In this document: in pieces, positions 16,801 to 62,824 of the stretch | Layout: the number at the start of each line of letters is the position of its first letter | How positions within the stretch are numbered: the stretch's first letter is position 1 | NCBI GenBank assembly: GCA_027019265.1 | Contig: JALUWX010000012.1 | Coordinates: 1-64,000, forward strand | DNA length: 64,000 nt | Source of the DNA: Phycisphaerales bacterium | GTDB lineage: Bacteria > Planctomycetota > Phycisphaerae > Phycisphaerales > UBA1924 | Direction: 5' to 3' | The notes under the pieces: generated by a model | Databases searched by the model: none | Told to the model about the DNA's origin: nothing | Seen by the model: only the letters and a program-made list of their open reading frames with translations | Made by a program: the position numbers and the translations under genes

Positions 16801-17071
16801 ACTCTGTGCCGTAGAAACTTCGTTCTCGCGTATGACGAGGAATGTGAAACTCTCGACGTTCTCGCACACCGCTATCAGTCGCCTCTGATGGGATAAAGGT
16901 GGGGGCGGTGAAAATGAACTCGAATGCTTCAATCGCTTCAAGCTGTTCTTTGAGTGCCTCGTATGCGTAAATTGAAAAGCAGGGCGCGGCGATCTGCAGC
17001 TTGGTACCTGGGCCAAGCTCGGCCTTCAGGTCGTCGCCGAACAACTTATTGATGTTGTCGATGATGTCCAT
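13799..17071 (-). CDS. SNF2-type helicase with N-terminal PLD-like region
   Basis: A 1090-residue SF2/SNF2 ATPase. The N-terminal ~60 residues (LQIAAPCFSIYAYEALKEQL) resemble the degenerate phospholipase D-like domain found in such proteins; the HKD catalytic residues are not obvious. The motor has Walker A ADSVGLGKT (275-283), DESH (365-368) and LSATPVNN. The second lobe reads ILIGTDCISEGQNLQDCDYL then QRFGRIDRIGS. An acidic insert (DIDPDDDDLPDFDDM) sits between the lobes. It follows the HTH gene by three bases and overlaps DUF4391. In an ordinary Type III system no such motor exists, so it is the element that makes this block unusual. Likely a DNA-translocating or remodelling ATPase that helps recognise or process invading DNA. 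Confidence 0.9.
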   Translation of the reverse strand: MDIIDNINKLFGDDLKAELGPGTKLQIAAPCFSIYAYEALKEQLEAIEAFEFIFTAPTFIPSEATDSGVRERREFHIPRHTRERSFYGTEFEIQLKNKLTQRAIARECADWMSRKCRFRSNRTRAPMQAFACIDRADGPIVYQPLHGFTAVDLGYQRGDAISNFISKIDGSPNTTAFLALFDQLWNDTDKLADVTERLAEHIAAVYQENAPNRIYFMMLYHIFNEFLEDLTEDVLPNDLTGYKDSQVWRKLYNFQSDAATGLINKLETFNGCILADSVGLGKTFTALAVIKYYELRNRSVLVLCPKKLADNWLNYNRNLKTNLFAGDRFNYDVLCHTDLQRTSGESFGTPLNRVNWGNYDLVVIDESHNFRNADPYKDRETRYDTLMRAVIREGVKTKVLMLSATPVNNRFTDLKNQLALAYEGDAEAFRERVGVTREIDDIFRRAQAAFNTWSKLPADERTTSAILDALDFDFFELLDSVTIARSRKHIQTFYDTSEIGTFPERLKPDSFHPPLTNRPDVIGFNDIYARLSQLVLAVYAPVSYILPSRLGNYEAIYDTEVGGGKGKLKQVDREKSLQSLMTVNLLKRLESSVEAFRITLGKLRVNHDAILTKIEEYRRTGVDAGFTDVAGGFADIDPDDDDLPDFDDMSVGGKVQIRLSDMDIESWEQALKSDLFVIRGLLDEMEKITPSDDTKLQHIKTQIRSKIASPINPGNKKVLIFTAFADTANYLYKCLSSDLLETEGVHTGIVTGSSSPKSTLGRSFDFQSLLTLFSPRSKEKALIMPEEPGKIDILIGTDCISEGQNLQDCDYLINYDIHWNPVRILQRFGRIDRIGSPNACIQLVNYWPDISLDEYINLKERVENRMVIADVSATGDDNVLTAKASDVSYRQEQLRKLQSEVIEMEDLRTGVSITDLGLNDFRMDLLNYIKEDPDLESLPSGLHAAVPADAERGLAPGVMFTLRNRHDGVNINQQNRLHPYYLVYVIMDGEVIANHAEVKRILDLARTSCRNRPEPHRQACELFNSETDDGRDMSKYSGLLRRAIGSIIDVSEDKDLDSLFTGKKTTALTQQIAGLDDFELIAFIAVLEVA

Positions 17072-17074
17072 GGC

Positions 17075-17308
17075 CTACACCCCGCCCGACTGACTATGGC
17101 CATGGCTAGTGCCTGTCTGTAGCCACCGGTCAACCGCATCCTTACTGAACCGCCAGTGCTTGCCCACTTTCTGCCCCGGCACCTTGCCCTCCTGAGCGAG
17201 CTTGTAGAGCGTGGACCGCGAGAGCTGCAGGTACGAACAAAGCTGCTCGATCGTCATAACATCGGGCAGTGGGTCGGAAGCGGGTTTGGCCGGGCCGTGG
17301 CGGGGCAT
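17075..17308 (-). CDS. Excisionase-type helix-turn-helix protein
   Basis: A 77-residue DNA-binding protein of the excisionase (HTH_17, MerR-like) family: DVMTIEQLCSYLQLSRSTLY followed by KLAQEGKVPGQKVGKHWRFS, which gives the helix-turn-helix and the conserved Gly-x-x-W-R-F wing. It is the first gene of the coupled restriction block, three bases before the helicase. Two roles are possible: a transcriptional regulator of the block, or an excision factor for the island. Position favours the regulator; the family name derives from excision factors but most members near defence genes are regulators or adaptors. Confidence 0.85.
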   Translation of the reverse strand: MPRHGPAKPASDPLPDVMTIEQLCSYLQLSRSTLYKLAQEGKVPGQKVGKHWRFSKDAVDRWLQTGTSHGHSQSGGV

Positions 17309-17312
17309 CGGC

Positions 17313-17334
17313 AGATTGTATCAGTTATTGTCAG
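17313..17334 (-). promoter_or_regulatory. Possible promoter and direct repeat before the HTH gene
   Basis: On the plus strand, two copies of TTGT(at)CAGTT lie head to tail about a helical turn apart (TTGTATCAGTTA, TTGTCAGTT). On the minus strand the first copy contains a -10-like TACAAT (17315-17320). It ends only six bases before the ATG, so a transcript from it would have almost no leader. There is no good -35. A short direct repeat beside an excisionase-type gene is a plausible binding site, but this is weak evidence. Confidence 0.35.
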
Positions 17335-17359
17335 TTGGCGTCGAGCGGTGAGGCAGGAA

Positions 17360-18805
17360 CTACACCCAGGACCGCAGTGCCTGGAGCACCCGCACCATCG
17401 CCAGCGTGTCCAACTTGCAGTACTCCAAAAGAGCACCCCGGACAGCTTGGATTTCCTGAGCGGTCGCGTCCCCCAACGCGAGCTTGGCGAACGCCGCCAC
17501 GGCCGCACCGCCGTCACCGATGTCGAGGTCGGCGTAGCTCAGGTCCGGCGCGAGTACCGGGAGCACGACCTTGATGCTTGACCGACCACCGAAGTCCGGG
17601 TGGACCATCCCCTTTCGCACAACAGGTTCGAGGTCGAAGAGCTTCGCTTCCAGGTTCGCGAGATCGGTTGCGTAGGTAGGTCGAAGACTCGCGAGCCCCC
17701 TGATCTGAGTCTTCTCGAACGAGCTGTAGACCACGATGGTCCGGCACTCCGCAGTGTCGCGGATCAATCTGGCCGCGAGTTCCTCGCGGCAATCCCGGGC
17801 ATGGTCAGCCAAGTACTCGAGGTGCGCCGGTTCGCTGCCGGGCGACGCCTCAACATGGAGCGAGTACTGGGTCACGAGCTGCTCGTGCGGCGCGACATCC
17901 GGATACAGCGGCAACGCGGTCATGAGCGTCTCGAAGTCGAGATAGCCGATCGGCCATTCCAGCGAATGCAACGCCGACCGGATCTCGGCGGCATCGATCT
18001 GAGGCGACTTGGTCCGGATCGCGGTCGCGGCCCTCTGTTGCGAATCGCTCAGCTTGTAGTCCGACGGGATCGCGGCTATCCGGGTCACACCCATCGCGGT
18101 CAACTCGGTGAACTTCTTCTCGCGGAGATAGGGGAGTTGGAAGATCGGATCGGAGATCCCGACCCCGACGCACCGGTCCGCGAAGTACTCGCAGTCCCGG
18201 CATTCCCAGCACCAATGCGGGCTCGGCCTACTTCGCCGAAGGAGCAGCGGGGCGATCTGATCCCACAGCCGGTTGAACTCTTCGGCGATCGGGGTCACCT
18301 CATCCGTGTGGTCGGTGACGACAAACAGATCCGGGTCCGGCATCCCGAGCCGCCAGTCGCGGTTCATCAGCACCAACTCGCAGTTCTTGACGGGCAGTCC
18401 GGCACGCCGGGCGACCATCACCGTGTACGCAAGGTCCTCAAGGTGCTCGTCCTTGGGGTCGTCTTCGTTGAACAAACTCGATTTGATCTCACCGATGACC
18501 CAACCACCCTTGACGCGACGGATCCAATCCGCCCGGGCGGTGTACCCATCGACCGTGAAGGCGGCCTCGAAGATGACCTCTACGGCACGATCGAGGATCA
18601 GTTGCTTGGTCTTCTCGATCGAGCCCGCGAACACGCCGTTGGGTTGCAGACTCTGGGCACGCCGGTGGACCTCCTGACCTTCCTGCATGCGGAGCAGATC
18701 GGCCGGCGTCGGTGTGCCGCCCGACTCTCGCATGCCGTACCACGCTCGAGTCTTGCAACCGAGTGCGGTGAGGAAGTCGTGCTTCGTGACGGTTCGCGTC
18801 GGCAT
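17360..18805 (-). CDS. DUF2779 protein, RecB-like plus DnaQ-like nuclease
   Basis: A 481-residue two-part protein. The N-terminal part looks like a Cas4/RecB-type PD-(D/E)XK nuclease: GYTARADWI then WVIGEIKSS gives D...E-x-K. Cysteines (CWECRDCEYFADRC, with an early Cys) could hold an iron-sulfur cluster. The C-terminal part is DUF2779: IGYLDFETL near residue 293 and YCKLDTLAMV near 464 are the first and last acidic motifs of a DnaQ-like exonuclease fold, with FGGRSSIKVVLP between. So it probably degrades or trims DNA or RNA. It lies 17 bases after the unknown gene upstream and 51 bases before the HTH gene, on the same strand. It may be a separate defence or element-maintenance gene. Confidence 0.82.
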   Translation of the reverse strand: MPTRTVTKHDFLTALGCKTRAWYGMRESGGTPTPADLLRMQEGQEVHRRAQSLQPNGVFAGSIEKTKQLILDRAVEVIFEAAFTVDGYTARADWIRRVKGGWVIGEIKSSLFNEDDPKDEHLEDLAYTVMVARRAGLPVKNCELVLMNRDWRLGMPDPDLFVVTDHTDEVTPIAEEFNRLWDQIAPLLLRRSRPSPHWCWECRDCEYFADRCVGVGISDPIFQLPYLREKKFTELTAMGVTRIAAIPSDYKLSDSQQRAATAIRTKSPQIDAAEIRSALHSLEWPIGYLDFETLMTALPLYPDVAPHEQLVTQYSLHVEASPGSEPAHLEYLADHARDCREELAARLIRDTAECRTIVVYSSFEKTQIRGLASLRPTYATDLANLEAKLFDLEPVVRKGMVHPDFGGRSSIKVVLPVLAPDLSYADLDIGDGGAAVAAFAKLALGDATAQEIQAVRGALLEYCKLDTLAMVRVLQALRSWV

Positions 18806-18822
18806 CGATGCTCAACGGTATG

Positions 18823-19671
18823 TCAATCCTGACCTGATACGGCAGCAACCCAGGCCGGCAGCAGGTGATCGGCGATGACGGGGCGTGCCTCGCGGCGAAG
18901 CCGCCACGTCTGTCCGGTCCGCCGTTCGATGAGCCCGGCTCGATCGAGCAGCCCCGTGATCAACTTCCAACCCGGCCGGCCCTCCGGCGTGACCTTGCAA
19001 GGATGCCCCCAATTCAAGCGGCCGAAGTGCCGATCGCTGATGACCCAAGTCCACCGACTCTCTCGAAGCGTGACGAGTAACGCAAGGTCGAACGCCAAGG
19101 CGATCGCCGGTTCACGCTCAGCAGAATCCCATCGCCGATCGATCGCACCACGCTCGTACGCCGGTGCGATGTCATCGTGGAACACGCTCACTTTGTTCAA
19201 GATGATCAGCGGCGGCCGGAACAGTTTGTCGTCAAGAATGCTGACGCCGGGGTCAAACACCTCGGCGATACCCTCGGCGTCGAGCATCGCCATGAACTTG
19301 GCGGCCTCGTCCTCAGTGATGCCTTGGACCGGCGTGTGCTTCCGACGGCTCGGCACCACTCGATTCCGTTTCGGCTTCGGCTTGGTCTTCAGTGGTTTCC
19401 GTTGCGGAGTCTCCGGGTCGCCGATGAGCCGGACGAGCCGCTCGCACGCACCGTGGCTGTTTAGGATCAGTTGCTGCACCTTGATGTGCCGCTGTCTCCA
19501 GACCGATGCCCGCTTCGCAAGCTCGGCCCGGAAGGTCGGACTGCCACTGTCCCAAAGGTCGATGAACCGACCGGCGACCGCCCCGTGTGCGTCCACTGTG
19601 GTCTGCACGAGCAGGGCATCGATGCTCACGAGCCAGGTTCGCTCGATGTCGGTGAGTTCGCCGTCCGCCAT
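18823..19671 (-). CDS. Unrecognised protein with winged-helix-like C-terminus
   Basis: I do not recognise this 282-residue protein. An open frame extends upstream through a run of adenines to 19989, but that part overlaps the recombinase. The ATG at 19671 has GGAG nine bases upstream and begins MADGELTDIERTW, so I use it. The protein is charged, with a basic linker (PLKTKPKPKRNRVVPSRRKH) in the middle. The last ~90 residues (GLLDRAGLIERRTGQTWRLR) read like a winged-helix DNA-binding domain. It lies between the serine recombinase and the DUF2779 gene on the same strand and may act with either. Confidence 0.6.
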   Translation of the reverse strand: MADGELTDIERTWLVSIDALLVQTTVDAHGAVAGRFIDLWDSGSPTFRAELAKRASVWRQRHIKVQQLILNSHGACERLVRLIGDPETPQRKPLKTKPKPKRNRVVPSRRKHTPVQGITEDEAAKFMAMLDAEGIAEVFDPGVSILDDKLFRPPLIILNKVSVFHDDIAPAYERGAIDRRWDSAEREPAIALAFDLALLVTLRESRWTWVISDRHFGRLNWGHPCKVTPEGRPGWKLITGLLDRAGLIERRTGQTWRLRREARPVIADHLLPAWVAAVSGQD

Positions 19672-19686
19672 GGGTGTCTCCGGTGT

Positions 19687-19718
19687 TCGACGGCTCCGCC
19701 GTCGACGTTTTTTTTTTT
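19687..19718 (+). terminator. Strong hairpin followed by eleven T residues
   Basis: An 8-bp perfect stem (TCGACGGC / GCCGTCGA, loop TCC), two bases, then T11. In sequence it is an excellent plus-strand terminator, yet no plus-strand gene lies upstream within 14 kb. On the minus strand it is A11 followed by a hairpin in the leader of the 282-residue protein gene, where it could affect message structure instead. It might also stop antisense transcription into the recombinase. Confidence 0.5.
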
Positions 19719-19793
19719 CTGAAGGCCGCCCCCGGCCGTTGGTCCGGGTGCGGCGAGGTCTTTGCAGGATCCAGCGGCAAACCGCCCAGATCC

Positions 19794-21737
19794 TCAAGCA
19801 GCCTTGCGTCGGCGTCGGCATGAACCGCATCCACGCCGCTTGAAGCTTCGACGGCATGTTTTGTCGCAACGCTTTGGTACAGAGGCGGTTACTTCTTCCA
19901 GCGTCACGCTCGCCCATTTGGAAGGGTGCCCCCCACGCTTGGGTTCGAGCTTGGGTACTGCCCTTCCATTTGCGTCGTCGAAGGCCCAACCGGGCAGAGC
20001 GAACTTGAACCGCACCTCCCGCGTCTCCGGATTCGCGATGGCCTCATCGATGAGCACCTCGCAGAGCGAACGGAGTGCGGTGCGGTTGCCGTCGAGAGCT
20101 TGTGTGCCGTGGGCTTCGAGCCACTCGATGACGACACCGGCCATCTCGTCAATCTGCTCGCCGGCGAGTTCATCGCCGCCGCCCAAGAGCGTAATCTGAT
20201 GGCCGAGTGCGATCGCCTCGTCGTTCAGCCGCTCAAGCTCGGCCTCGATGCGAGCGGTGTCGTCCACGCGGGACAGCATCCGATTTTGCACCTCGATGGC
20301 CTTCTCGACGCGGGCGAGCTGCTTCTTCAGGTCCGGCAGGTTGCTCTTTTGCTTCTCACGCTCGGCCTGCTGCCGCACCAACTCGGCCGCGATATCGTCA
20401 TGGAGCGTGGGCAACGAGCAAATGATCTGCTCAACACGTTCCAGCACGAACCGCTCAAGCGGCTCCGCCGGGATCATCGCCCGCTTCACCGGAAGCTCCG
20501 ACATCGCGAGCTTGTCGAGGCTGTTTGATGTGTAGTAGCGGTGACGCGTTCGACCGGAGTCGGTGCCTGTCATCGGCTTGCCGATCCGCTCGTCGATCAG
20601 GATCCCGCTCAACGGCCACGTGCCTCGGCCGTTCGCCTTCGACTTCTTCTTCTGAGGTACGTATCCGGACGCGGCCCGCTCCAAATAGTCGTCGATCGCT
20701 GCCTCGGCCTTCTCGCGGACATCCGCCGACAGGAAGTCACGCAAGCCGTCGTACTCGCGGAATACCCAATCCTCACGTGGTCGGAGGACCTTGACAGGCA
20801 CGCCCACATCACGCCCCGTTGGCTTCGGCCCGTCCGGGTGCTGCCGGTAGTAGTACGCCTGACTGATCCAGTTCGCCCGCCCCCGTCCGAGGTACACCGG
20901 ATTGCGGGTGATGCGGTCGACCGACGACGGTTCCCAATAGCCGCCCCGCGGAGCCATGACACCCTCGTCATTCAGGATGGTGGCGATCCGGTTCGGACCA
21001 AGCCCTTGCATGTACTTCAGATGGAAGATTCGACGCACGGTTTCGGCCCGGTCGGGCTGACCCTCGATCAGCTCGACACGGTGACGATCCGACTTGTCGT
21101 ATGTGTGTCCCTGTTCGAGCATGTCCTTGGTGTCGCCGGTACGGGCATCGATCACCTCTCGCCGACCATCCGGGTGCTCTCGCACGATCTCGATGGGTTC
21201 GTCCTTGCTGTCGATGTACAGCCGATCGAGCCCATAAGGTGCCCGCGACGAGTGGTTCCGCTTGCCATCAAGCAGCCGCAACATCGAGTTGCGGGCCGAC
21301 GCGTTGGCCGCGGTTTCTGAGGACTGACGTGCCGACATGGCATCGACGTAGTCCATGAGATCGTCGCCGGGCGACTTGTGTGGAGTCCACCTGGTGGCCG
21401 AGATCACCTCGATACCGTGCAGCTCAAGGCGATACTGAACAGAAATCCAGTGCTTACCACCCGTGCGTGCTCGTCGCGTCGGGTCATAGAACACGAGACA
21501 CTTGACCGGCTCGCCGGCTAGTTTACGACGGATCGCCTCGTCGGCGATGGCGTCGATGTTCCGTTCGTCGGATCCCGTGCGGCCACCGAAGTCGATTGGG
21601 TCCAACGCGATCATGCCCATCCGGTCGATCCACTCGCCGATGTATTTACGCTGAGCGGGGACCGATTCGAGCTGTTCCTCTGTCGAGGATCTGTAGACGG
21701 GGATTCCGTATTCCCCTTTGAGCGGCTGATCATTCAT
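19794..21737 (-). CDS. Large serine recombinase
   Basis: A 647-residue site-specific recombinase. The catalytic domain begins GIPVYRSSTEEQ, placing the active Ser at residue 18 (Arg-x-Ser-Thr, with Ser where Val is usual), and continues with VKCLVFYDPTRRARTGGKHW. A Recombinase domain follows (GLGPNRIATILNDEGVMAPR), then a zinc-ribbon-like stretch without the usual cysteines. A coiled coil (LPDLKKQLARVEKAIEVQNR) comes next, typical of large serine integrases, and then a basic tail. Start at 21737 is chosen for its AGGAG. The small gene upstream overlaps it by eight bases. Because the island also has a tyrosine integrase, this enzyme may move a nested element, or it may be a second mobility function of the same island. 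Confidence 0.9.
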   Translation of the reverse strand: MNDQPLKGEYGIPVYRSSTEEQLESVPAQRKYIGEWIDRMGMIALDPIDFGGRTGSDERNIDAIADEAIRRKLAGEPVKCLVFYDPTRRARTGGKHWISVQYRLELHGIEVISATRWTPHKSPGDDLMDYVDAMSARQSSETAANASARNSMLRLLDGKRNHSSRAPYGLDRLYIDSKDEPIEIVREHPDGRREVIDARTGDTKDMLEQGHTYDKSDRHRVELIEGQPDRAETVRRIFHLKYMQGLGPNRIATILNDEGVMAPRGGYWEPSSVDRITRNPVYLGRGRANWISQAYYYRQHPDGPKPTGRDVGVPVKVLRPREDWVFREYDGLRDFLSADVREKAEAAIDDYLERAASGYVPQKKKSKANGRGTWPLSGILIDERIGKPMTGTDSGRTRHRYYTSNSLDKLAMSELPVKRAMIPAEPLERFVLERVEQIICSLPTLHDDIAAELVRQQAEREKQKSNLPDLKKQLARVEKAIEVQNRMLSRVDDTARIEAELERLNDEAIALGHQITLLGGGDELAGEQIDEMAGVVIEWLEAHGTQALDGNRTALRSLCEVLIDEAIANPETREVRFKFALPGWAFDDANGRAVPKLEPKRGGHPSKWASVTLEEVTASVPKRCDKTCRRSFKRRGCGSCRRRRKAA

Positions 21738-21972
21738 GCCTGCTCTCCTTTTGACCGTCCAATACATCGCGAGCGATCACTGCGATCAGGAGGCGGACGG
21801 CCTCACGGAAAAGCTGCTCCTCCTGCTGCGACTGCCGTCGGTACTCCGCGGCAGCGAACCTGACCGGTTTCGCCTTCCGCCCGCGTCGGCGAGGGCTACC
21901 GTCGCCCCCGTCGCCAGACAGATCCGATGACCGACCGTGTTGGTTCATGCTCTTCCGCTTCTGTACTTCCAT
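21730..21972 (-). CDS. Small basic protein before the serine recombinase
   Basis: An 80-residue protein that I do not recognise. It starts MEVQKRKSMNQHGR, is highly basic and glycine-rich in the middle (SPRRRGRKAKPVRF), and ends in a helix (EQLFREAVRLLIAVIARDVL). A second in-frame ATG at 21948 could also be used. Its stop overlaps the recombinase start by eight bases, so the two are probably translated together. That suggests a small partner of the recombinase, such as a directionality or DNA-binding factor. This role is inferred from position and charge only. Confidence 0.5.
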   Translation of the reverse strand: MEVQKRKSMNQHGRSSDLSGDGGDGSPRRRGRKAKPVRFAAAEYRRQSQQEEQLFREAVRLLIAVIARDVLDGQKESRHE

Positions 21973-22070
21973 GACGCCGCCCAAACTCCTTCTTTCACTC
22001 GTGCGATCTGGTACCGATTTCTGTTGGAATGCCGGCCGCCACGATTGGCAGCTCTCGCTACTATTTGGCC

Positions 22071-22466
22071 TTATCGCTGCGGCCACGGCCGCGAGCGCGA
22101 AGGCTCCACCGGCACTACCGCCATACCGCTCGCGTGACCGTGCGTGCCGCGCGCCCGGTCCACCGCCTCGCGGAACGACTCGCCAAACTCGCGTGCGTAC
22201 CCGTCCTCGATGGTGTCGCAGAAGCCATAGATCGCGCCGAGGAGCGTCGCGATATCGTCGGGTCCCATTCCATCGTCGAGTGTCTGGATCCGGAACCCAC
22301 GCGGCGATGCGTGCTCGCAATCCGGCGTGCTCACCGGATCCGGCATCGACACCGCGAGCAGCAGCGTGCGTGACAACCCCGCCGTCGCCGCCTCGCAGTT
22401 GCTCGCGAGTAGTCTGATCTTTCTCGCCATCCCATCGGGGCCGTTGAATGTGTGCGTCGACGTCAT
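22071..22466 (-). CDS. Small unknown island protein
   Basis: A 131-residue protein without recognised domain. It has AGAGAGG before the ATG and reads MTSTHTFNGPDGMARKIRLL, then a region with a helical, acidic core (GMGPDDIATLLGAIYGFCDT). It ends in an Arg/Pro-rich tail. Codon positions look coding (third-position G/C), and it is spaced ~100 bases from the small basic gene. Compare the next gene upstream, which also has a helical, acidic and alanine-rich composition; the two may be a related pair. Function unknown. Confidence 0.5.
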   Translation of the reverse strand: MTSTHTFNGPDGMARKIRLLASNCEAATAGLSRTLLLAVSMPDPVSTPDCEHASPRGFRIQTLDDGMGPDDIATLLGAIYGFCDTIEDGYAREFGESFREAVDRARGTHGHASGMAVVPVEPSRSRPWPQR

Positions 22467-22549
22467 CGCCGTACCTCTCTAAATAAGGAATGACCACCAA
22501 ACCCGCGGCGAGGCGTTGGCCCCGCGGCGAGCCTCTCTCCCCTCCGCCG

Positions 22550-22909
22550 TTACCCACCGCAGTCATCGCACAGGTCGAGCCCCGCCGCGTCGAGCATCTC
22601 GCGCCGTGCCTTGTTCACGAGGTCTCGGAATGCCTCTTCGCCCATCTCCGCGCCCACTGCCATCTGCGACAGCACCATGAGCACCGCGACATCGAGCTGC
22701 GCGAGCAGCACCGCGACCTCCGCCTCGTTGAGCGTCCCGACCGCGCCGGCCACCAATGCCTCCGGCCGCGCCGCGGGAACCGGTCCGTCGCGGTCCTCCC
22801 CAAGCGTGGCCGCCACCGCGAGCACGCCGCCGTGCTCCTTCGCCCATGCGAGCAGCCCATCCGCCGCCGCCGTGATTTCGTCCGCCGTGTGGGTGTTGTC
22901 GTTCGTCAT
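22550..22909 (-). CDS. Small acidic unknown island protein
   Basis: A 119-residue, strongly acidic, alanine- and leucine-rich protein (DEITAAADGLLAWAKEHGGV; EVAVLLAQLDVAVLMVLSQM) ending in a Cys-x-x-Cys (LDLCDDCGG). A GGAG precedes the ATG. The hydrophobic stretch AVLLAQLDVAVLMVLSQM is long enough for a membrane helix but carries Asp and Gln, so a soluble helical bundle is more likely. It is the first gene of the minus-strand run that leads to the serine recombinase, and it faces a plus-strand gene across a ~220-bp region full of inverted repeats. Small acidic proteins on mobile elements are sometimes DNA mimics or anti-defence proteins; that is only a possibility here. Confidence 0.5.
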   Translation of the reverse strand: MTNDNTHTADEITAAADGLLAWAKEHGGVLAVAATLGEDRDGPVPAARPEALVAGAVGTLNEAEVAVLLAQLDVAVLMVLSQMAVGAEMGEEAFRDLVNKARREMLDAAGLDLCDDCGG

Positions 22910-22923
22910 CCGATGCTCCGTCA

Positions 22924-23118
22924 GTACGCCAATGAGTCAATACGGCGTACATAGCGTTGCGTCGGAGCAAAGGCAAGGATCCGTCCGCGGCGAACTCGAC
23001 AATTTCGAGACGAAACCAGAGCCACGTCAGGATCCAGCTCAAACCCCCATGGATCCTGACGCAAATCGCCAATTCTCGGGTATGCGGATATAGACGCCAA
23101 CACGCAGATCCGGCGTAC
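22924..23118. promoter_or_regulatory. Divergent control region with inverted repeats
   Basis: The region between the divergent genes contains three copies of the heptamer GGCGTAC: 22924-22930 (inverted), 22944-22950 and 23112-23118. The first two form a 7-13-7 inverted repeat directly before the minus-strand gene, and the third lies just before the plus-strand start. Separately, a perfect 10-bp inverted repeat, GTCAGGATCC / GGATCCTGAC (23026-23035 and 23051-23060), has a 15-base spacer. These look like operator sites for a shared regulator, which is not identified. Confidence 0.5.
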
Positions 23119-23128
23119 CATGTTCATC

Positions 23129-23689
23129 ATGCCACGAGCAGGTACACCCAATCAGTCATGGCGTGATGTGCTTGATGAGGTACGCGAGCTCGCGTTACGC
23201 ACGGGTACGGGCCGCACGAAACTACTCCGCAAGCTCGACGAACTTGACCTCGCGATGGCCAGTGAGATTGACGCCCTGGACGACGCACGCCGCCGGCGGA
23301 TCATCGGCCCCCGTGCCCGCGTGCGGGCAGCCACCTACACCGTCGAAGAGTCACGCCGCGGCCCCGCTCTCATTGAGATTCGCCCCGACGCGTCGGCGAG
23401 GCCGTACAAGGTGCCGCTGCCGTACTACAGGGCGGTGGCCGCAGAGGTCGCGTCCACCGCGGAGCCGCAACTCTTCGCCACCATCAAGGCTGCTGCGAGC
23501 CGTGGGCTGGGTGAGGAGCTGCCCGACTACGCCGCCCGCGTCTCGCTGCGATTCTGGTCCGCCTCAGGTCTCGTCCATCATGAGGGTGCTCGCTTCACCC
23601 GCGTCGGAACCAAGGCCGAGTTCACGCGTCAGGTGCGGGACGCTTGGAACGCCGCTTCTTCCGCCCCCTTTGAGGTCCATCCAGATTGA
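23129..23689 (+). CDS. Unknown island protein, possible element regulator
   Basis: A 186-residue protein that I do not recognise. I use the ATG at 23129 (MPRAGTPNQSWRDVLDEVRE) rather than the one three codons upstream. It starts with a helical, charged region (RTGRTKLLRKLDELDLAMAS) and has a basic patch (DDARRRRIIGPRARVRAATY). A beta-rich domain follows (GPALIEIRPDASARPYKVPL). The basic patch and its location beside the operator-like repeats would suit a DNA-binding regulator. The last 68 bases overlap the end of the integrase gene on the other strand. Confidence 0.55.
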   Translation: MPRAGTPNQSWRDVLDEVRELALRTGTGRTKLLRKLDELDLAMASEIDALDDARRRRIIGPRARVRAATYTVEESRRGPALIEIRPDASARPYKVPLPYYRAVAAEVASTAEPQLFATIKAAASRGLGEELPDYAARVSLRFWSASGLVHHEGARFTRVGTKAEFTRQVRDAWNAASSAPFEVHPD

Positions 23690-25073
23690 AGTACTCGCCA
23701 AGCTTTTCGAGGGCTTCGAACAACGCGGCCAACTCTTCTGTCCGGTAATGACGGGCGGGCTTCTTGTCGCCGTGGGCGAGGTATTGGTAGACAACATGGG
23801 GCGTGGTCCCGCGCACGATGCGTTCGAGTTCCTGAGCGCCGGTTGACCGGAACGACTTGGCCGTCCGCCTGGGGTCCTCGTTCTTCTCCTTCGTGAGCAC
23901 CTTGTCGACAAAGGCGGTGAGGTCACGGCTGATGTTGCTGTATCCCTTCCCGAACGGCAGCTTGTCGGGCACGCTCTTGACATGGGCTTCGAGGAGCGCC
24001 TTGGTCACCGGCCAGAGCGTGTGTGCTTGGGCAGCGCCGGTCTTGCTGCGTTGTCGCAGAATTTCACCGCGATCGAAGTCGATGGTCTCGCGTTCAAGTG
24101 TTCGGATATCCGCGGCCCGGTATCCGGCGTTCAGCCCCAAAGCCATCACGAGCTTCATGCGGTCGTCCGCCTGAGCCCACAATGCGTGGATCTCTTCGAG
24201 GCTGAAGAATGTCGGGTTCGGGTCGTCCTTGCCGATTTGCGACCAGTGCCGGTCGATCGCACGCGGCATAGTGGTCAGGTACCCGCTCTTGACAAGGTAC
24301 TCGCAGAACAGCCTGACTTTGTCCAAGCGGCCCTTGCCCCAGCCCTTGGACAGCTCGCGTTCGTTCATCTCCTCGATGATGTGCTCACGGTAGTCCGCGA
24401 TAGCGCGCCAGTTCGCTTCAAGATCACGCGTCAACACGATCGGTGGGTCGGTTTCCGCAAGAAACTCGATGAACGGCTTGATGTTGGTCCTGAACGATCC
24501 AATGTGACTCGATGATTGCTTGGCCGACTTCTTCTCGTTCTCGACGGACTCGACCCACTTGGTCATGAGCTCGTCGAGCGGGGCGTTCGCGTCGGTGACC
24601 GCGGCCCGCCCATGGGCGGCGAGGATGGCCTCCAACTCCGCGATCTTGGCGTCCTTGAGCTCGATGGCCTCTTCGAGGACAGCCGCCCTCCACGCCTGCC
24701 GGAGGAGCTCGGGGATGTCCTGGTCGACGATGAGTCGCTGCCGCACCTCGCGGAACGGGCGGCTGAAGAAGCGGTGGAGGTCCTCGACCTGAAGGAACAC
24801 ATCTTCGAGCTGCTCGGTGTGTTTGGCGGCGAAATCACGGATCTCCTGCCCACCCGTGAGCAGTTCCTCCTTGAGCAGAGACTCCTGAACGGCCCGGGCG
24901 TAGGCAGCTTGGTCCTCAGGACCGCTGCCGCCCCGTCCGACCCAATAGGCGTGCTCCTTGCCCCGGATGGTCCGCCGGAAGCGCCAGCACTTCTCCCGTT
25001 CGTTCCACCGCAGCCTGACGGGCTTACTCCGTCCCGTTACTGACCCGTTTCGCTTCGCCATCCGTTTTTCCAT
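23622..25073 (-). CDS. int: Tyrosine recombinase, island integrase
   Basis: A 483-residue phage-type integrase. I use the ATG at 25073 (MEKRMAKRNGS), preceded by GGAG; the longer frame to 25190 has no ribosome site. It has an N-terminal basic arm-binding part, a helical core-binding domain (SHIGSFRTNIKPFIEFLAET) and the catalytic domain. The latter shows NAGYRAADIRTLE (first Arg), RRTAKSFRSTGAQEL (K-S-F-R, where His-x-x-Arg is usual), GDKKPARHY (final Tyr). Its first codons lie on one of the CGGATG repeats, so binding of Int there could repress its own gene. It sits 150 bases from attR with the tRNA, the standard arrangement. It should catalyse insertion and excision at tRNA-Arg. Confidence 0.92.
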   Translation of the reverse strand: MEKRMAKRNGSVTGRSKPVRLRWNEREKCWRFRRTIRGKEHAYWVGRGGSGPEDQAAYARAVQESLLKEELLTGGQEIRDFAAKHTEQLEDVFLQVEDLHRFFSRPFREVRQRLIVDQDIPELLRQAWRAAVLEEAIELKDAKIAELEAILAAHGRAAVTDANAPLDELMTKWVESVENEKKSAKQSSSHIGSFRTNIKPFIEFLAETDPPIVLTRDLEANWRAIADYREHIIEEMNERELSKGWGKGRLDKVRLFCEYLVKSGYLTTMPRAIDRHWSQIGKDDPNPTFFSLEEIHALWAQADDRMKLVMALGLNAGYRAADIRTLERETIDFDRGEILRQRSKTGAAQAHTLWPVTKALLEAHVKSVPDKLPFGKGYSNISRDLTAFVDKVLTKEKNEDPRRTAKSFRSTGAQELERIVRGTTPHVVYQYLAHGDKKPARHYRTEELAALFEALEKLGEYFNLDGPQRGRKKRRSKRPAPDA

Positions 25074-25154
25074 CCGCTCAGCTCCGGATCGAGCACGCGT
25101 GGTGCTCCCCTCCGGCGGGTGGATGATAGCCCAAAACGGATGGAAAAACGGATG
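25059..25154. repeat. Candidate integrase arm sites, right end
   Basis: An inverted unit, CATCCGTTTTTCCATCCG (25059-25076), overlaps the first codons of int, and a direct unit, CGGATGGAAAAACGGATG (25137-25154), lies between int and the tRNA. They match the left-end pair at 3268-3285 and 3349-3366. Confidence 0.62.
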
Positions 25155-25194
25155 GATCTGGAATGGCCGGCGGGAGCACAGAAACCCCAAAACG

Positions 25195-25225
25195 ACGCAA
25201 GCCCTGCATTTAGCAGGGCTTGCGT
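25195..25225 (-). terminator. Island-borne terminator of tRNA-Arg
   Basis: A perfect 13-bp stem with a 5-base loop, on the minus strand ACGCAAGCCCTGC, TAAAT, GCAGGGCTTGCGT, then CGTTTTGG. It begins at the base next to the 45-bp core and so belongs to the island, replacing the tRNA's previous terminator now found at 3137-3157. Confidence 0.8.
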
Positions 25226-25270
25226 AAGCACGGGCGGAAGGATTCGAACCCTCAACCTCCTGATCCGTAG
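25226..25270. repeat. Right attachment site core, 45-bp direct repeat
   Basis: Identical to 3161-3205. This copy is part of the complete tRNA-Arg gene and keeps it functional. The repeat runs from the anticodon loop to four bases past the tRNA 3' end. Confidence 0.93.
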
Positions 25271-25302
25271 TCAGGTGCTCTATCCAGTTGAGCTACGCCC
25301 GC
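25229..25302 (-). tRNA. tRNA-Arg(ACG)
   Basis: A 74-base tRNA on the minus strand. The acceptor stem is GCGGGCG paired with CGCCCGT (one terminal G-T), the D arm contains AACTGGATAG, the anticodon stem-loop reads CCTGA CTACGGA TCAGG with anticodon ACG, and the T loop is TTCGAAT. CCA is not encoded. ACG is normally deaminated to ICG and reads CGT/CGC/CGA. It serves as the integration site of the island. Confidence 0.96.
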
Positions 25303-32997: not shown

Positions 32998-35052
32998 TCA
33001 ACCCGCGCCCGGCGCGGGTTTTTCTTTGCGCACCCGCGCGAGCCATTTGCACCAGATGGACAGCACCACGAGCATGTACAACCGCTGCGAATGGTCGCGC
33101 CCGTGCCACGGGTTGATCGACTTCTCCCCGGCCGCATCGTGCTCCCGGATCATCCGCTCCACGAAGCGCATGTTGATCTCCACCCCCGACTCCCCGAGCC
33201 CCGGGAACGGGTCCGACGAGCGCAGGTGATCGAGCATCAGCTGGCGCATCCCCCCGTAGTCCGAACGGAACCACTCCCCGATCGGGATCGCGAAGCCCTG
33301 CTTGGGACGATCGACGATGTGATCGGGGAGGTACTTCCGCGCGACCTGCTTAAGGAGCCCTTTGCGTTCGCCGTTGGGCATGAGCACATCGAGCGGAGTC
33401 CGGAGCGCGGCCTCGACGAGATCACGAGCAAGGAACGGGGCTCGGACTTCGAGCCCGACCGCCATCGAGGCGGTATCCGTTTTCCGGAGCAGATCATCCG
33501 AGAGATAGTGCTCGAAGTCTTCACGGAGCGGATCCTCAACGTATCGATAGGTTGAGTCGCCGGGGGTTTCGCCGTCGATACTCGGGATCAACCTTCGAAG
33601 ATCGGGGGTCGGGAAGATCGAGAGCAGTTCTGAGTATCCCCCGTAGCGAGCCGCCGTAATGAGACGAGCCAGATAGGTCGTCCGACTCCCCGGCACGCGC
33701 TGGTCGAGCATCCGGGTCGGGATCAGCCTGAGTGCATGGCGCCATCGAAGAAGCGTTGGCGCGATCGTGTGCCGTCGATATCCCCCGAACAACTCGTCTC
33801 CACCGTCCCCCGAGAGCGCGACCTTGACGTGTTCACGTGCGGCTTTGGACACCCAGTACGTCGGGAGCAACGAGCTGTCCCCGAACGGGAGCCCGAGTTG
33901 CTCGATAAGCTTGACGAGATCGTGCGCCGGATCCGGATCGCACTCGAGGATCTGGTGCTCGATCCCGATGTGTTTCGCCGTTTCCGAAGCAGCCTGGGAC
34001 TCGTCGTACCGTGCGTCGTTCATCCGAACCGTGTACGCCCGGACATCTGGTCTGTGCGTGTGTGTGATCGCCGCGATGAGCGACGAGTCGATCCCCCCCG
34101 AGAGGAACACACCGAGAGGGACGTCGGCCTCAAGCCGCGATGTGATCGCGGGCTCGATCTGTTCACAGAGCTTCTTTGCTCGTAGTTCGCCGATCGTTTC
34201 TGAACCGAGTCGTTCAGAGAGCTTGTATCTCCGTCGCACACTCGTGAGCGGTGTTGTTGCGAACTTGGGGTTTCGCTTCTCTGCGCCCTGCTTGGGTTCC
34301 CGTGGACAGATCGACCACTCGCGAGGGTGGACCCCGTACGCAGGAATCGGTGGAATGAAAGTCGCTCCATCTCGGATCCACCACTCGAAACCCATGAGGT
34401 ACGGGTTCGCTTCTCCGATCGCAGCGAGCGGCGGAAGACACGACGAAAGAACTCGAACATTGGATGGTGATCCGCTGTGGTACAACGGCTTCTCACCGAC
34501 GAGATCGCGTCCCCATCCGAGTTGTCTTGTCTGTCGATCCCAAGCAATCGCCGCGTACATCCCGTCGAGTTCATCGAGGATCCGGAGTCCCCACGCCCGC
34601 CACCCATGCACCAACACCTCCGTGTCCGAGTGATCCGTCCCGAACACGTACCCCTTCCCCTCAAGCTCCTCCCGAAGCTCCCGATGGTTGTAGATACACC
34701 CGTTGAACACCACCCCGACCAGCGGCTTGCCGGGCTCCACCTCGCTCGCAACGATCGGTGTCTTCCCTCGGTGATACACCAGGTCCGGCCGCAAACGCTC
34801 CCCGTCGTGGATCATGGGCTGCGCCCCGTCGGCGAGGTCGATGATGCTCAAACGCCGATGCACGAGCGCGACATCGACGATCGTCCCGTCCTCCCGGACG
34901 GCGCGGTCCCGGAACCGTCCCTCCCCGTCGGGACCACGATGCATGATCGAGTCGTCGAGCACATCGAGCCACGACTCCGGGATCGATTCCAAAGGCGGTG
35001 GGGGCGTCTCGCCCGGCTCAAAGACCCGGATCACCCCCGCGATCCCGCACAT
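32998..35052 (-). CDS. asnB: Asparagine synthase (glutamine-hydrolysing)
   Basis: A 684-residue cytoplasmic enzyme that makes asparagine from aspartate, glutamine and ATP. The N-terminal glutaminase starts MCGIAGV with the nucleophile Cys2 and has IMHRGPDGEG and LVHRRLSIIDL. The synthetase part has the PP-loop FLSGGIDSSLIAA and SGDGGDELFGGYRRH. The start abuts the stop of the preceding membrane-protein gene (TGAATG), so the two are coupled. AsnB-like enzymes also amidate cell-surface or exopolysaccharide components; in this operon next to ugd that cannot be excluded. Confidence 0.95.
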   Translation of the reverse strand: MCGIAGVIRVFEPGETPPPPLESIPESWLDVLDDSIMHRGPDGEGRFRDRAVREDGTIVDVALVHRRLSIIDLADGAQPMIHDGERLRPDLVYHRGKTPIVASEVEPGKPLVGVVFNGCIYNHRELREELEGKGYVFGTDHSDTEVLVHGWRAWGLRILDELDGMYAAIAWDRQTRQLGWGRDLVGEKPLYHSGSPSNVRVLSSCLPPLAAIGEANPYLMGFEWWIRDGATFIPPIPAYGVHPREWSICPREPKQGAEKRNPKFATTPLTSVRRRYKLSERLGSETIGELRAKKLCEQIEPAITSRLEADVPLGVFLSGGIDSSLIAAITHTHRPDVRAYTVRMNDARYDESQAASETAKHIGIEHQILECDPDPAHDLVKLIEQLGLPFGDSSLLPTYWVSKAAREHVKVALSGDGGDELFGGYRRHTIAPTLLRWRHALRLIPTRMLDQRVPGSRTTYLARLITAARYGGYSELLSIFPTPDLRRLIPSIDGETPGDSTYRYVEDPLREDFEHYLSDDLLRKTDTASMAVGLEVRAPFLARDLVEAALRTPLDVLMPNGERKGLLKQVARKYLPDHIVDRPKQGFAIPIGEWFRSDYGGMRQLMLDHLRSSDPFPGLGESGVEINMRFVERMIREHDAAGEKSINPWHGRDHSQRLYMLVVLSIWCKWLARVRKEKPAPGAG
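33001..33025 (+). terminator. Terminator after MscS, inside the asnB 3' end
   Basis: CCCGCGCC, one base, GGCGCGGG then TTTTTCTTT. It stops plus-strand transcription, but its stem encodes the last codons of the convergent asparagine synthetase gene (PAPGAG). Confidence 0.85.
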
Positions 35053-42134: not shown

Positions 42135-43658
42135 ATGAGCGATCGAGCGACCATCACCAACCTCATCGACGAACTCGACTGGCGTGGGTTCATCAAAGAC
42201 TGCACCGACCGGGAAGGGCTCGTGTCCCACCTCGCGTCCGGACACCGACGCATCTACGCCGGGTTCGACCCCACCTCCGACTCCCTCACCATCGGGAACC
42301 TCGTCCCCATCATGATGCTCGCGCACGTGCGGCGCGCTGGGCACACCCCCGTCGTCGTCATGGGCGGAGGGACCGGGCTCATCGGCGACCCCTCGGGCAA
42401 GTCCGCCGAACGCCAGATGATGACCAAGGAGCTCGTCGAGCACAACGTCTCCAAACAACGCGCCATCTTCGAGAACGTCCTGGGACAGATCGACGGCCCC
42501 GACTACGAGATCAAAAACAACCTCGACTGGTTGGGCTCCATCTCGTACATCGACGCGCTCAGAGACATCGGCAAGCACTTCTCCGTCAACATGATGATGC
42601 AGAAGGAGTCCGTCAAAGAACGACTCAACAACAGAGAGCAGGGAATCTCCTACACCGAGTTCTCCTACATGATCCTCCAGGCCTACGACTTCGCGCACCT
42701 CTACGAAGCGGAGAAGATTACCGTGCAGTTTGGGGGGTCAGATCAATACGGCAACATCGTCGCTGGTTGTGACCTGATTCGTCGATACCGGCGAGAGTTT
42801 CTTGAGCGCATGATTGAGTTGTATCGCCCAGCCGCTAAAGCAGCCGGAGCTGATATTGATCTAGCAGTTTTCCGTGAAGCGACAAAAGATGAAGCTGATC
42901 GAAATCCTGTGTTTGCAGATGCACTACTTTCCACGCTCAATGTGGCGTGGAAGCGATATGGGCACGTAGTTGGAATTTCAGCAGAAGATCTTGAACGGTT
43001 GCAACGAGAGATCGCATTGGGCGATTTCAACTGTTCGGGCCTCACCGCCCCCCTCGTCAAAAAAGCCGACGGCACCAAGTTCGGCAAAACCGAAGCCGGC
43101 GCGATCTGGCTCACCGCGGCGCGCACCTCCCCCTACGCCTACCACCAGTTCTGGCTCAACGCCTCCGACGACGACGCACGCGACTGGATCAAGATCTTCA
43201 CCTTCCTCCCCAAGGACGAGATCGAAGCCATCCTCGCGCGTCACGACGAAGCCCCGGGGAAGCGTGAACTCCAGCGAGCCCTCGCCAACGAAGCGACCAA
43301 GATCCTCCACGGCGAAGCCCAGATGGAGAACGCGATCGCCGCAGGGAAGGCCCTCTTCTCCGGCGACATCGCCGCCCTCGATGAGTCCACCCTCCTCGAC
43401 GTCTTCGCGAATATCGAGTCCTCCACCCACCCGATCGCGGACCTTGACGACGGCGCAGACCCCGTCGAAATCCTCAAGGCCGTCGGGCTCGCGAGCTCGA
43501 ACCGGGAAGCCAAGGAGTTCCTGAATGAGGGCTCCGTGAGCGTGAACGGGCAGAAGATCGATCTCGAAACCAAGCTCACCCGGGACCACCTCCTCCACGG
43601 GTCCATCATCGCGATCCGGAGGGGCAAGAAGAACTGGCGTTTGACCCGCTGGTCCTGA
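42135..43658 (+). CDS. tyrS: Tyrosyl-tRNA synthetase with inserted domain
   Basis: A 507-residue class I aminoacyl-tRNA synthetase that charges tRNA-Tyr. The HIGH region reads DPTSDSLTIGNLVPIM, so the first His is Thr and the second Asn. GGSDQYGNIVAGCDLIRR (about 200-217) binds tyrosine, and KFGKTEAG is the KMSKS equivalent (about 315). An S4 RNA-binding domain follows (LASSNREAKEFLNEGSVSVN). Between DLIRR and CSGLTAPLV lie ~80 extra residues (YRREFLERMIELYRPAAKAA through EDLERLQREIALGDFN), which make it longer than the usual ~420. That insert and its flanks (about 42720-43030) use A/T-ending codons, unlike the rest of the gene. The frame is intact, so the enzyme is probably functional. Confidence 0.93.
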   Translation: MSDRATITNLIDELDWRGFIKDCTDREGLVSHLASGHRRIYAGFDPTSDSLTIGNLVPIMMLAHVRRAGHTPVVVMGGGTGLIGDPSGKSAERQMMTKELVEHNVSKQRAIFENVLGQIDGPDYEIKNNLDWLGSISYIDALRDIGKHFSVNMMMQKESVKERLNNREQGISYTEFSYMILQAYDFAHLYEAEKITVQFGGSDQYGNIVAGCDLIRRYRREFLERMIELYRPAAKAAGADIDLAVFREATKDEADRNPVFADALLSTLNVAWKRYGHVVGISAEDLERLQREIALGDFNCSGLTAPLVKKADGTKFGKTEAGAIWLTAARTSPYAYHQFWLNASDDDARDWIKIFTFLPKDEIEAILARHDEAPGKRELQRALANEATKILHGEAQMENAIAAGKALFSGDIAALDESTLLDVFANIESSTHPIADLDDGADPVEILKAVGLASSNREAKEFLNEGSVSVNGQKIDLETKLTRDHLLHGSIIAIRRGKKNWRLTRWS

Positions 43659-51771: not shown

Positions 51772-52419
51772 TCAGCGCCGACGACGCGCGAGCACGAGAC
51801 CCGCGCCCACGAGCACCGATGCGCTCCCCGGCGAAGGCACAATCGCGAACGCGAGGTCGTTGAACGTCGGATCGAACACCGTGAACCCGGACCCGTTGAA
51901 GAAGTCCGTCGCGTTCACGAGATCACCCATCGACGACCCGGACCACACCCACGCGTCCGCGCCGCCGTTGACGAGGGTCGAACCGATCGAGATCCAGTAC
52001 TCGCTGCCGCCCGAGAGGGAGAGCGCGGACCCGAGATCGAGGGTGTACTCGAACTCCATCCCTCCGCCGAAGAGCGTCGCGCCCGTCGCGCTGACGGAGA
52101 GCGAGCTGAGCTCCGTATCGACCGTCGTGCTGAAGACTTCCGTGCTCAGATCATCAGCGAAGATCCGGACCGTGTACGACGACATGTTCGTCAGATCCGC
52201 GAACTGGAAGTTCTGCGAACCACCCCACCAGCGGATCTGGGTGACCTCGGTGTCCGAAGCGAGGGTGAAGTTGTCGGCCATGCGCTGGGAGAAGAACTGC
52301 CCGGCAACAGCATCAGAGAAGAAACTCGCCTGGCTCGGCTGATCCGAGTCCTGCACATAGACCTCAGCGAAAGCGCTGCTCGACAGCGCGACAAGCACAG
52401 CGGGGACGATCAAACGCAT
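51772..52419 (-). CDS. Exported protein with PEP-CTERM-like anchor
   Basis: A 215-residue secreted protein: signal peptide (RLIVPAVLVALSSSAFA), a beta-rich domain (MADNFTLASDTEVTQIRWWG, which fits a family of exported planctomycete and cyanobacterial PEP-CTERM proteins) and the tag VPSPGSASVLVGAGLVLARR with a final Arg run. The stop directly abuts the stop of the convergent gene. No enzyme motif. Confidence 0.8.
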   Translation of the reverse strand: MRLIVPAVLVALSSSAFAEVYVQDSDQPSQASFFSDAVAGQFFSQRMADNFTLASDTEVTQIRWWGGSQNFQFADLTNMSSYTVRIFADDLSTEVFSTTVDTELSSLSVSATGATLFGGGMEFEYTLDLGSALSLSGGSEYWISIGSTLVNGGADAWVWSGSSMGDLVNATDFFNGSGFTVFDPTFNDLAFAIVPSPGSASVLVGAGLVLARRRR

Positions 52420-52501
52420 CTCGGTTCCTCCAAGGTTCGACGCGCATCTCGCGCGTGGTCGTGGTGAGATACGGTAGCCGAGATCGGTCCGGATCCAATG
52501 G

Positions 52502-61162: not shown

Positions 61163-61177
61163 GGGATGGAGGGGGAA

Positions 61178-61744
61178 ATGATTGATTGGGATGAGCGATA
61201 TAAACTGCTCACGGAAGAATATGAGCGTTTTCAAAATTCTAGGAAGATTGCTTACGATCAATCGAAGTATGTGTTTGAAAATGTAGACAAGTGGCTGCTG
61301 ACTTTGTCTAGTGGTGGCGTGGCGTTGACCACCGCGTCTCTCGCTATCAATGATCAGGCTAAAGCCAATTCACTCATTGCTTTGGCGGGTGTTTCATTCC
61401 TTCTTGCGATCGGTCTTGCCTTGGTGACAAAGGGCATCAGCTATTTGGCCACAAAGTGGTACGTGAAAGCGACAGATACAGCTTGGGTACGATTTCAACA
61501 TAGATTTTCCCGAGCCCATAGGCGATACACGATTCGAGGGTTGCGCCGGGTTGATGTCAAAATCTCCATTCTCAACATCACGACATATGTCGCGTTTTTG
61601 CTAGGACTATTGCTGATCGCTGTGGCACTCGTCGGACAAGTTGCTAGAATTGGTGGGCAAGGAGATGCCACTAGTGATGCAGCAGCCAAATCAACCCTCT
61701 CACCCGACGCCTCCACCCAGACCGGCTCCGCCACCTCGCCCTAG
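61178..61744 (+). CDS. Low-G+C two-helix membrane protein
   Basis: A 188-residue protein that I do not recognise. ATG 61178 has GGAGG five bases upstream, better than the ATG at 61166. A cytoplasmic helix of charged residues (WDERYKLLTEEYERFQNSRK) precedes two pairs of hydrophobic segments (LTLSSGGVALTTASLAI with LIALAGVSFLLAIGLALV, then YVAFLLGLLLIAVALVG), with a basic loop between (RFQHRFSRAHRRYTIRG). The gene has many A/T-ending codons, unlike the thiolase that ends 15 bases earlier. A possible membrane effector; this is speculation. Confidence 0.7.
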   Translation: MIDWDERYKLLTEEYERFQNSRKIAYDQSKYVFENVDKWLLTLSSGGVALTTASLAINDQAKANSLIALAGVSFLLAIGLALVTKGISYLATKWYVKATDTAWVRFQHRFSRAHRRYTIRGLRRVDVKISILNITTYVAFLLGLLLIAVALVGQVARIGGQGDATSDAAAKSTLSPDASTQTGSATSP

Positions 61745-61850
61745 TACGCCGCAAAGACCTGCGCCGCCAATTCCAACTCCATCAACTCCGATGCCGAAGG
61801 GGCCGCCACTATTCACGCCCCCACCACCGCCTCCAAGACCCAGCAGTTGA
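61677..61850 (+). CDS. Small proline-rich protein overlapping the previous gene
   Basis: A 57-residue protein of Pro (almost half), Ser, Thr, Arg and Gln (QQPNQPSHPTPPPRPAPPPR, then PSTPQRPAPPIPTPSTPMPK). It overlaps the end of the two-helix protein gene in another frame; ATG 61677 (AAGGAG ~13 bases upstream) or ATG 61665 are possible starts. Pro-rich low-complexity frames can arise by chance opposite a Thr/Ala-rich reading, so this is not certain. In favour: it runs well past the stop of the first gene without a break and has its own ribosome site. Confidence 0.45.
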   Translation: MQQPNQPSHPTPPPRPAPPPRPSTPQRPAPPIPTPSTPMPKGPPLFTPPPPPPRPSS

Positions 61851-62014
61851 GAGCAAGGGTTCTTCAAGTATTCGTAAAAATAATGGATTTGCAGATAGAG
61901 TATTACTGCACGATGTCGTGGATTTTTCTGCAAAATCAGTCTTCGGATCCAGGAATCACTACGCCTAAGCGACCAATGGGGCGCATGAGTTCGATGTGTT
62001 TGGTATGATCTGGA

Positions 62015-62824
62015 ATGGGACAACCAAAGGTATCTTTCGTACAGTGCGAGCAGGCGACCGTCTGGCCTGAGATCAGTAAGACTCATGACTGGATCGATTC
62101 TTCCTTTTCAACAAGCCCGAGTGCAATTGGGGAATTGAGATTTAGTCCGCCAGCAAACGGAAATTATGCCCGCAAGCATCCGGTATGCGATCCCTCCGGG
62201 GCGACAGTCGGGTATATCGCCAAGGGTGTCTGGGAGATTGGGTATACATATACAAGTGTCTACGTAGGGGGGTGTTTTTGGATTGCGAATGCACCGATCC
62301 GGGGGACAACATCAAGCAATGATTTCTCGCGAGTCTCGCTTGTAGATAGAGTGGGGCAATTCTTCTGGGGTAAAGATCCGAAGTTTGCTGTGACAAAAAC
62401 GTTTGTTCTTGGGGATGGTTGGCCCTTTTCGATAGAAGCATTTAAGCTTGTTGGGGATGGGTCACACCTGTTCTATATGTCGAAATGTGGCTTCGCACTT
62501 TTTGACGTCCGGGGTAGAGAGCGTGAGGCACAAGTGGATTTTGATGACTTGGCCTATCAGTTTTCAGGATTCGACGTATCTCCTAAAGTATTGAGCCTTG
62601 CAGTTGCGTTCTCAACACGGGATTGCCGAGACGTTGTTGACGGGGAATATCGATACAAGAATTTCCTACGCTTGTACGACATGACTACGGGATTCGTACT
62701 CGGGCAGCAGGATTTGCCTGGATCCAGCCATGAGCATTGGGTAGTTAATTTTAGCGAAAATGGTCGTCGGCTAAAGGTGGAGTCTAAATCAAAAATTATA
62801 ATTTTTGAAATGAAATCGATTTAG
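62015..62824 (+). CDS. Low-G+C unknown protein, beta-rich
   Basis: A 269-residue protein that I do not recognise. It is rich in aromatic and small residues, with strand-like segments (GATVGYIAKGVWEIGYTYTS; VYVGGCFWIANAP; FSIEAFKLVGDGSHLFYMSK), consistent with a beta-propeller or beta-sandwich. TCTGGA lies before the ATG. Codons such as TTT, AAA, ATA and AAT, rare elsewhere in the window, are frequent; G+C is clearly lower. The ~165 bases between it and the Pro-rich gene are A/T-rich with no other feature. It closes a cassette with the two genes before it. Confidence 0.7.
   Translation: MGQPKVSFVQCEQATVWPEISKTHDWIDSSFSTSPSAIGELRFSPPANGNYARKHPVCDPSGATVGYIAKGVWEIGYTYTSVYVGGCFWIANAPIRGTTSSNDFSRVSLVDRVGQFFWGKDPKFAVTKTFVLGDGWPFSIEAFKLVGDGSHLFYMSKCGFALFDVRGREREAQVDFDDLAYQFSGFDVSPKVLSLAVAFSTRDCRDVVDGEYRYKNFLRLYDMTTGFVLGQQDLPGSSHEHWVVNFSENGRRLKVESKSKIIIFEMKSI

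Follow-up and report, generated by a model that had tools for sequence, protein, structure and literature searches.

The closest described system is the hypervariable region of flagellin (fliC), whose forms lack homology to one another and are exchanged by recombination ending in the conserved flanks (PMC7018530). The tyrS gene of the Phycisphaerales genome analysed here shares with fliC its conserved ends, its middle forms without detectable homology, the occurrence of different forms in close relatives, and recombination that ends in the flanks. Two differences stand out: flagellin builds an exposed filament under immune, phage or predator pressure, whereas tyrosyl-tRNA synthetase (TyrRS) and the other enzymes discussed below are cytoplasmic, with no evident exposure; and the tyrS segment adjoins catalytic motifs. 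Within TyrRS itself, the fungal mitochondrial enzyme CYT-18 carries Ins 1 and Ins 2, insertions that are lineage-specific and create new surface (PMC4275181). The likeness lies in the placing of lineage-specific insertions in the catalytic domain; those of CYT-18, however, are small, common to one clade and linked to the splicing of group I introns, while the tyrS inserts described here are hypervariable and have no Rfam match. Diversity-generating retroelements (DGRs) also target variability to one part of a gene, but they depend on a reverse transcriptase plus a template repeat, and the tyrS variation concerns whole segments with changes in length. Rickettsia palindromic elements are in-frame, translated inserts in housekeeping genes, and form repeat families scattered over many genes; the tyrS inserts, in contrast, are mostly mutually unrelated and fixed in position. 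Swappable segments are known from surface proteins such as flagellin; as far as we found, they are apparently undescribed for housekeeping enzymes of the cell interior, and a literature search of partial coverage returned no earlier report of synthetase insertions or mosaics of this kind. We consider it quite probable that the patch of AT-ending codons in this tyrS represents one of many alleles of a hypervariable segment whose site is fixed, and which is replaced, within this group of Phycisphaerales, through homologous recombination with divergent relatives.

The tyrS gene and its AT-ending tract

The gene (42135..43658, plus strand, of the window, i.e. the whole stretch of 64,000 nucleotides that was analysed) encodes a protein of 507 aa that matches TIGR00234 (E=5e-101; 338.6 bits against a curated cut-off of 113.8) and TyrRS entries of the PDB; with its catalytic motifs present, it classifies as a bacterial TyrRS. 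Both sets of matches are split into two stretches around the insert. Read codon by codon, GC3 is ~0.9 up to codon ~195 (42717), lies at 0.1-0.6 from there to codon ~300 (43034), and recovers immediately thereafter. This tract (codons 195-300; 42717..43034, plus strand), delimited by GC3 per codon block and by maximum-likelihood segmentation, comprises the conserved tyrosine-pocket motif ITVQFGGSDQYGNIVAGCDLIRR and the insert. The original prediction had announced such a change from C/G-ending to A/T-ending codons inside the gene, and it was borne out: GC3 is 0.36 in the segment versus 0.88 in the remaining gene. The maximum-likelihood low-GC3 segment runs from 42738 to 43007 (GC3 32/90, versus 0.876 outside), with a log-likelihood gain of 49.8 versus at most 8.9 in 200 shuffles, for which segment lengths were sampled on a coarse grid. 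Across the same codons, relative codon adaptiveness drops from ~0.87 to ~0.5. As had also been predicted, the reading frame stays open throughout and conserved motifs stand at both sides; at the conserved 3' anchor GLTAPLVKKADGTK (43038..43080, plus strand) codon usage and identity to relatives are normal again.

Among 3,116 forty-codon windows from 110 ortholog pairs (this genome versus its relative G006), those of tyrS show the deepest GC3 dips (-0.56), the asnB-like gene being the sole other gene of this genome with a deviation below -0.25. Within the ~610 kb scanned from this genome, no real-looking gene outscored tyrS for an internal dip.

Elsewhere in the window, a probable mobile island (11068-25302) adjoins a tRNA-Arg gene (25228-25302, minus strand). 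It encodes a large serine recombinase-like protein (19878-21773), an adenine methyltransferase-like protein and a DISARM DrmD-like SNF2 helicase, all scoring below curated cut-offs. A tRNA-SeC called by ARAGORN (51855-51935, minus strand) overlaps a called protein-coding gene (51787-52437) and is a candidate only. Two ORFs at 61163-62821, with a GC3 of 0.47 between GC-rich genes, were possibly acquired recently.

Predicted structure of the variable segment

The alignment with Bacillus stearothermophilus TyrRS (2ts1) is interrupted between residues 221 and 296, which gives ~76 residues beyond ordinary TyrRS and agrees with the ~80 first estimated. In the B. stearothermophilus enzyme the equivalent loop follows Arg207-Lys208, residues that contact the tRNA acceptor arm. 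The variable segment (residues 218-301; 42786..43037, plus strand) is predicted to form a helical domain: in the AlphaFold2 model of the whole protein (mean pLDDT 88) the last tyrosine-pocket helix is extended, and the segment appears as four helices (202-236, 243-251, 258-275 and 283-295; block pLDDT 53-91), while the remainder matches E. coli TyrRS. Modelled alone, the segment gave the same four helices (pLDDT 70). The model thereby supports the earlier expectation of an extra domain on the catalytic half. Any known domain was rejected as the identity of this segment: Pfam gave nothing above cut-off, PDB sequences gave nothing with E below 0.39, and no solved fold matched at E<4, the query of this last search being a low-confidence model.

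The insert site in relatives

We compared tyrS in 60 relatives and 80 public contigs (mostly MAGs), nearly all of which have the gene. Between DLIRR and GLTAPLV lie 7-20 residues in most relatives, and 26 to ~105 in the genus and part of the family. Within the genus the inserts lie at exactly the same site, after DLIRR and before GLTAPLV; they range from 12 to ~103 aa, usually have AT-ending codons and are mostly without detectable mutual similarity, since 102 of the 105 pairs of inserts fail to score above shuffles at z>5 and the only ones that do belong to the trio of this genome, G014 and G002. As in flagellin, unrelated forms thus occupy one site between conserved flanks. For tyrS, the one candidate for a form common to lineages with diverged flanks is the family of this trio, in which the inserts of G014 and G002, the nearest ones, are 33-35% identical to that of this genome. 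A donor of the present allele was not found among the relatives' inserts, nor was any near-identical, recently shared tyrS allele caught among the relatives; both results count against our explanation, for which the evidence of recent sharing comes from valS.

Other sources and identities were considered. A silent donor cassette in the genome itself was rejected, as no second copy of the tyrS tract was found there. A phage or viral donor was rejected because viral matches were to generic TyrS only, at 42-49% identity and over lengths too short for the insert. The inserts of G014 and G002 (L031 being the public copy of the latter's contig) differ by a dN of 0.09 and a dS of 1.44; by this low ratio the segment is evidently translated and under protein-level constraint in these relatives. 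A group I or II intron was rejected on account of this purifying selection, the open frames in relatives, and the lack of any Rfam match at E<=1 around tyrS. A DGR or other retro-process came into consideration because the tract is diffuse on its 5' side and sharp on its 3' side; it was rejected, since 21 genus genomes contain no RVT_1 match, the tract has no second copy, and the polarity is absent in valS.

Across genus and family the position is identical and insert GC3 amounts to 0.29-0.49, versus 0.7-0.9 in the flanks. Whether all close relatives share the insert with the same codons, which had been named as grounds for taking it to be old, thus has a divided answer: the site and the AT-ending codons are common to them, the same insert is not. 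Assembly error was the other ground named for doubting the patch. Breaks do occur here: four of ~20 genus assemblies (G017, G018, G013 and G008) show gaps, N or contig ends within tyrS, among them an N gap in G018 and contig breaks in G017 and G013 at this spot, and several have them in asnB. Such breaks are consistent with strain mixtures and are better read so. That this MAG holds an assembly or binning chimera is hardly credible, because open-frame inserts stand at the same site in many independent MAGs and gene order around tyrS is conserved on a 99.8-kb contig; the frame, moreover, is open.

Turnover between sister species

Two sister species whose flanks are 98% identical differ in their inserts, which are unrelated and measure 91 and 36 aa; in a tree built on the flanks only, sisters with inserts of these lengths lie 0.057 substitutions/site apart, and a 12-aa form is sister of G014, nested in a clade of 83-aa forms. 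Between L005 and L013, the closest sisters, nucleotide identity is 0.89-1.0 up to ~45 nt ahead of the insert, falls to 0.64 in that last stretch, and is 0.87-0.93 directly after the insert. Their difference begins ~17 codons before the insert, with most synonymous sites differing, and stops at GLTAPLV: the synonymous mismatch is 12/17 in the 20 codons before the insert versus 25/145 at greater distance (p=1e-5); immediately after the insert it is 6/20, no different from the far background. A near-insert excess is seen as well in L010/L011 (p=0.003). The excess is weak in L002/L009 (p=0.03) and lacking in L006/L016, one of the four close tyrS pairs tested; these two pairs count against our explanation. 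The mean mismatch of close pairs climbs from ~0.25 to 0.46-0.66 within the 32 codons before the insert and stands at 0.34 over the first 8 codons on its downstream side. This genome against 14 genus members gives 0.57 in the 20 codons before the insert versus 0.34 further upstream, and 0.25 in the 20 codons after it. Close relatives therefore differ in the form they carry, and divergence changes abruptly at its borders, again as in flagellin; this jump argues for replacement of a tract rather than steady drift.

Variable segments in other enzymes

In valS the variable patch lies between WWGHRIPVW and DPDVLDTWFSS. The patches of G016 and G007 are 97% identical over 231 nt, with 1/68 synonymous mismatches, versus 0.29-0.35 over the 30 codons next to the patch and as much as 0.77 at greater distance; the crossovers fall within conserved motifs. 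Judged from sequence, this shared patch is direct evidence of horizontal exchange of a segment smaller than a gene. The same patch family is found in G009 (0.78 amino-acid identity), where the patch has a GC3 of about 0.47 in a valS of 0.87. Counted on the alignment, the shared patch shows six nonsynonymous changes to one synonymous change, which is suggestive only as to diversifying selection on an exposed target; in the G014/G002 tyrS insert dN/dS is low. The valS of this genome (L292, G000:C32) itself has an AT-rich variable patch of 102 codons, with a GC3 of ~0.4 over the first three quarters and flanks of 0.9.

The asnB-like gene of the window (33001-35052, minus strand; profile match to TIGR01536, asparagine synthase) has a milder dip in codons 168-297 (34162..34548, minus strand; GC3 0.56 versus 0.80), in a hypervariable region between GEKPLY and SGGIDS. 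Its middle is hypervariable across the genus and forms a recombination mosaic in sister species: between G007 and G001 the synonymous mismatch jumps up and back over ~400 codons. Two matches to this gene, L195 and L201 (in G013 and G001), have one in-frame stop each (TAG and TAA). In aroDE, the mismatch between G014 and G002 goes from 0.04-0.18 to 0.5-1.0 over ~170 codons, then back. AT-rich variable patches are likewise borne by valS and by hisS, the latter on the basis of match gaps and the G006 gene.

An unbiased ranking of 625 internal dips in 1.42 Mb of G006 placed the asnB-like gene first, tyrS second, aroDE fourth, valS fifth and hisS seventh, the third place falling to a methyltransferase-like gene that is probably mobile. 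On a 119-kb contig of G014 the top dips, a run of N aside, are those of aroDE, tyrS and asnB. Three of six motif-recognised synthetases in the G006 stretch have a strong patch; AspRS, GluRS and GlnRS have none. Read from these comparisons, segment swapping affects at least five genes (tyrS, valS, hisS, the asnB-like gene and aroDE), and is a hotspot phenomenon with many allele families; their amino-acid theme was noticed afterwards, and from half a genome of one relative (G006). The original prediction of recombination with a foreign tyrS accordingly stands as to internal replacement, which the sister tracts and the valS patch support; a single event with one foreign tyrS was rejected as too narrow, given the many insert forms at the site, the turnover in the flank tree, and the further genes involved.

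Codon composition of the segments

Why the segments should be AT-rich admits of several answers. If the insert were a surface loop free to evolve, its GC3 could have been lowered by relaxed or reversed codon selection during fast vertical divergence without recombination. Local identity and GC3 are indeed correlated genome-wide, if weakly (rho 0.09-0.14), dS is raised in the G014/G002 insert, and in each of the 18 genomes compared valS has an AT-rich patch whose dip coincides sharply with the variable segment. But other fast-evolving windows (identity 0.15-0.30) dip little (mean -0.07), codons in alignment gaps elsewhere have a GC3 of 0.76, and insert GC3 lies below strict intergenic GC (0.35 versus 0.59 in this genome, 0.29 versus 0.50 in G006), so that simple loss of codon selection does not suffice. 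Plain relaxation is disfavoured on these three counts; the unrelated inserts of the nearly identical sisters also speak against vertical divergence, and for valS the patch shared by G016 and G007 contradicts it. We therefore regard this account as unlikely.

Selection at the level of RNA or translation for AT-ending (slow, weakly paired) codons, for instance aiding the folding of the domain during synthesis, with recombination secondary, we hold to be unlikely as well, although active selection for such codons is possible in itself. In its favour, the long inserts of the genus keep a GC3 of about 0.35-0.47 regardless of host GC3 and below intergenic GC, and the tyrS dip extends 20-30 codons upstream of the insert and not downstream. 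Yet these same upstream codons differ between sisters, as expected of a replaced tract, and valS lacks the 5'/3' polarity. Some long TyrS inserts outside the genus, moreover, keep a high GC3 (0.84 in L035, 0.78 in L008), a finding that also counts against our own explanation, as does the GC-richness of many hosts of AT-rich alleles. An imported composition retained through rapid turnover fits the AT-richness.

Proposed mechanism and significance

Replacement by recombination would proceed as follows. DNA with another allele would enter the cell and pair with tyrS through GGSDQYGN...DLIRR upstream and GLTAPLVxKADGGKFGKTE downstream, strongly conserved motifs proposed because the sister differences start and stop there. 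The tract between the crossovers would be replaced in frame, a step visible in the comparison of sister species. On translation the new segment would form a helical domain that stands out from the catalytic fold; that it is translated and constrained is evident in relatives, and the fold is predicted. Turnover would outpace adjustment to host codon usage, and the GC3 of the allele pool (~0.35-0.47) would be kept.

A similar behaviour is seen in valS, hisS, the asnB-like gene and aroDE, which suggests that diversity is favoured by selection in these enzymes. It is conceivable, though doubtful, that TyrRS, ValRS, HisRS, asparagine synthase and AroD-AroE are under frequency-dependent diversifying selection, for example to evade phage proteins, toxins or inhibitors that bind to them, and alter their surfaces with swappable AT-rich cassettes from a common pool, in a cytoplasmic equivalent of antigenic variation. 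Essential synthetases often serve as markers that are taken to evolve slowly. In this group, internal segments of several synthetases have a faster turnover than the species themselves and move between species, which affects phylogenies built on synthetases as well as the assembly of MAGs, where contigs break at the patches. It also raises the question of why cytoplasmic housekeeping enzymes need a diversity that is usual for surface antigens.
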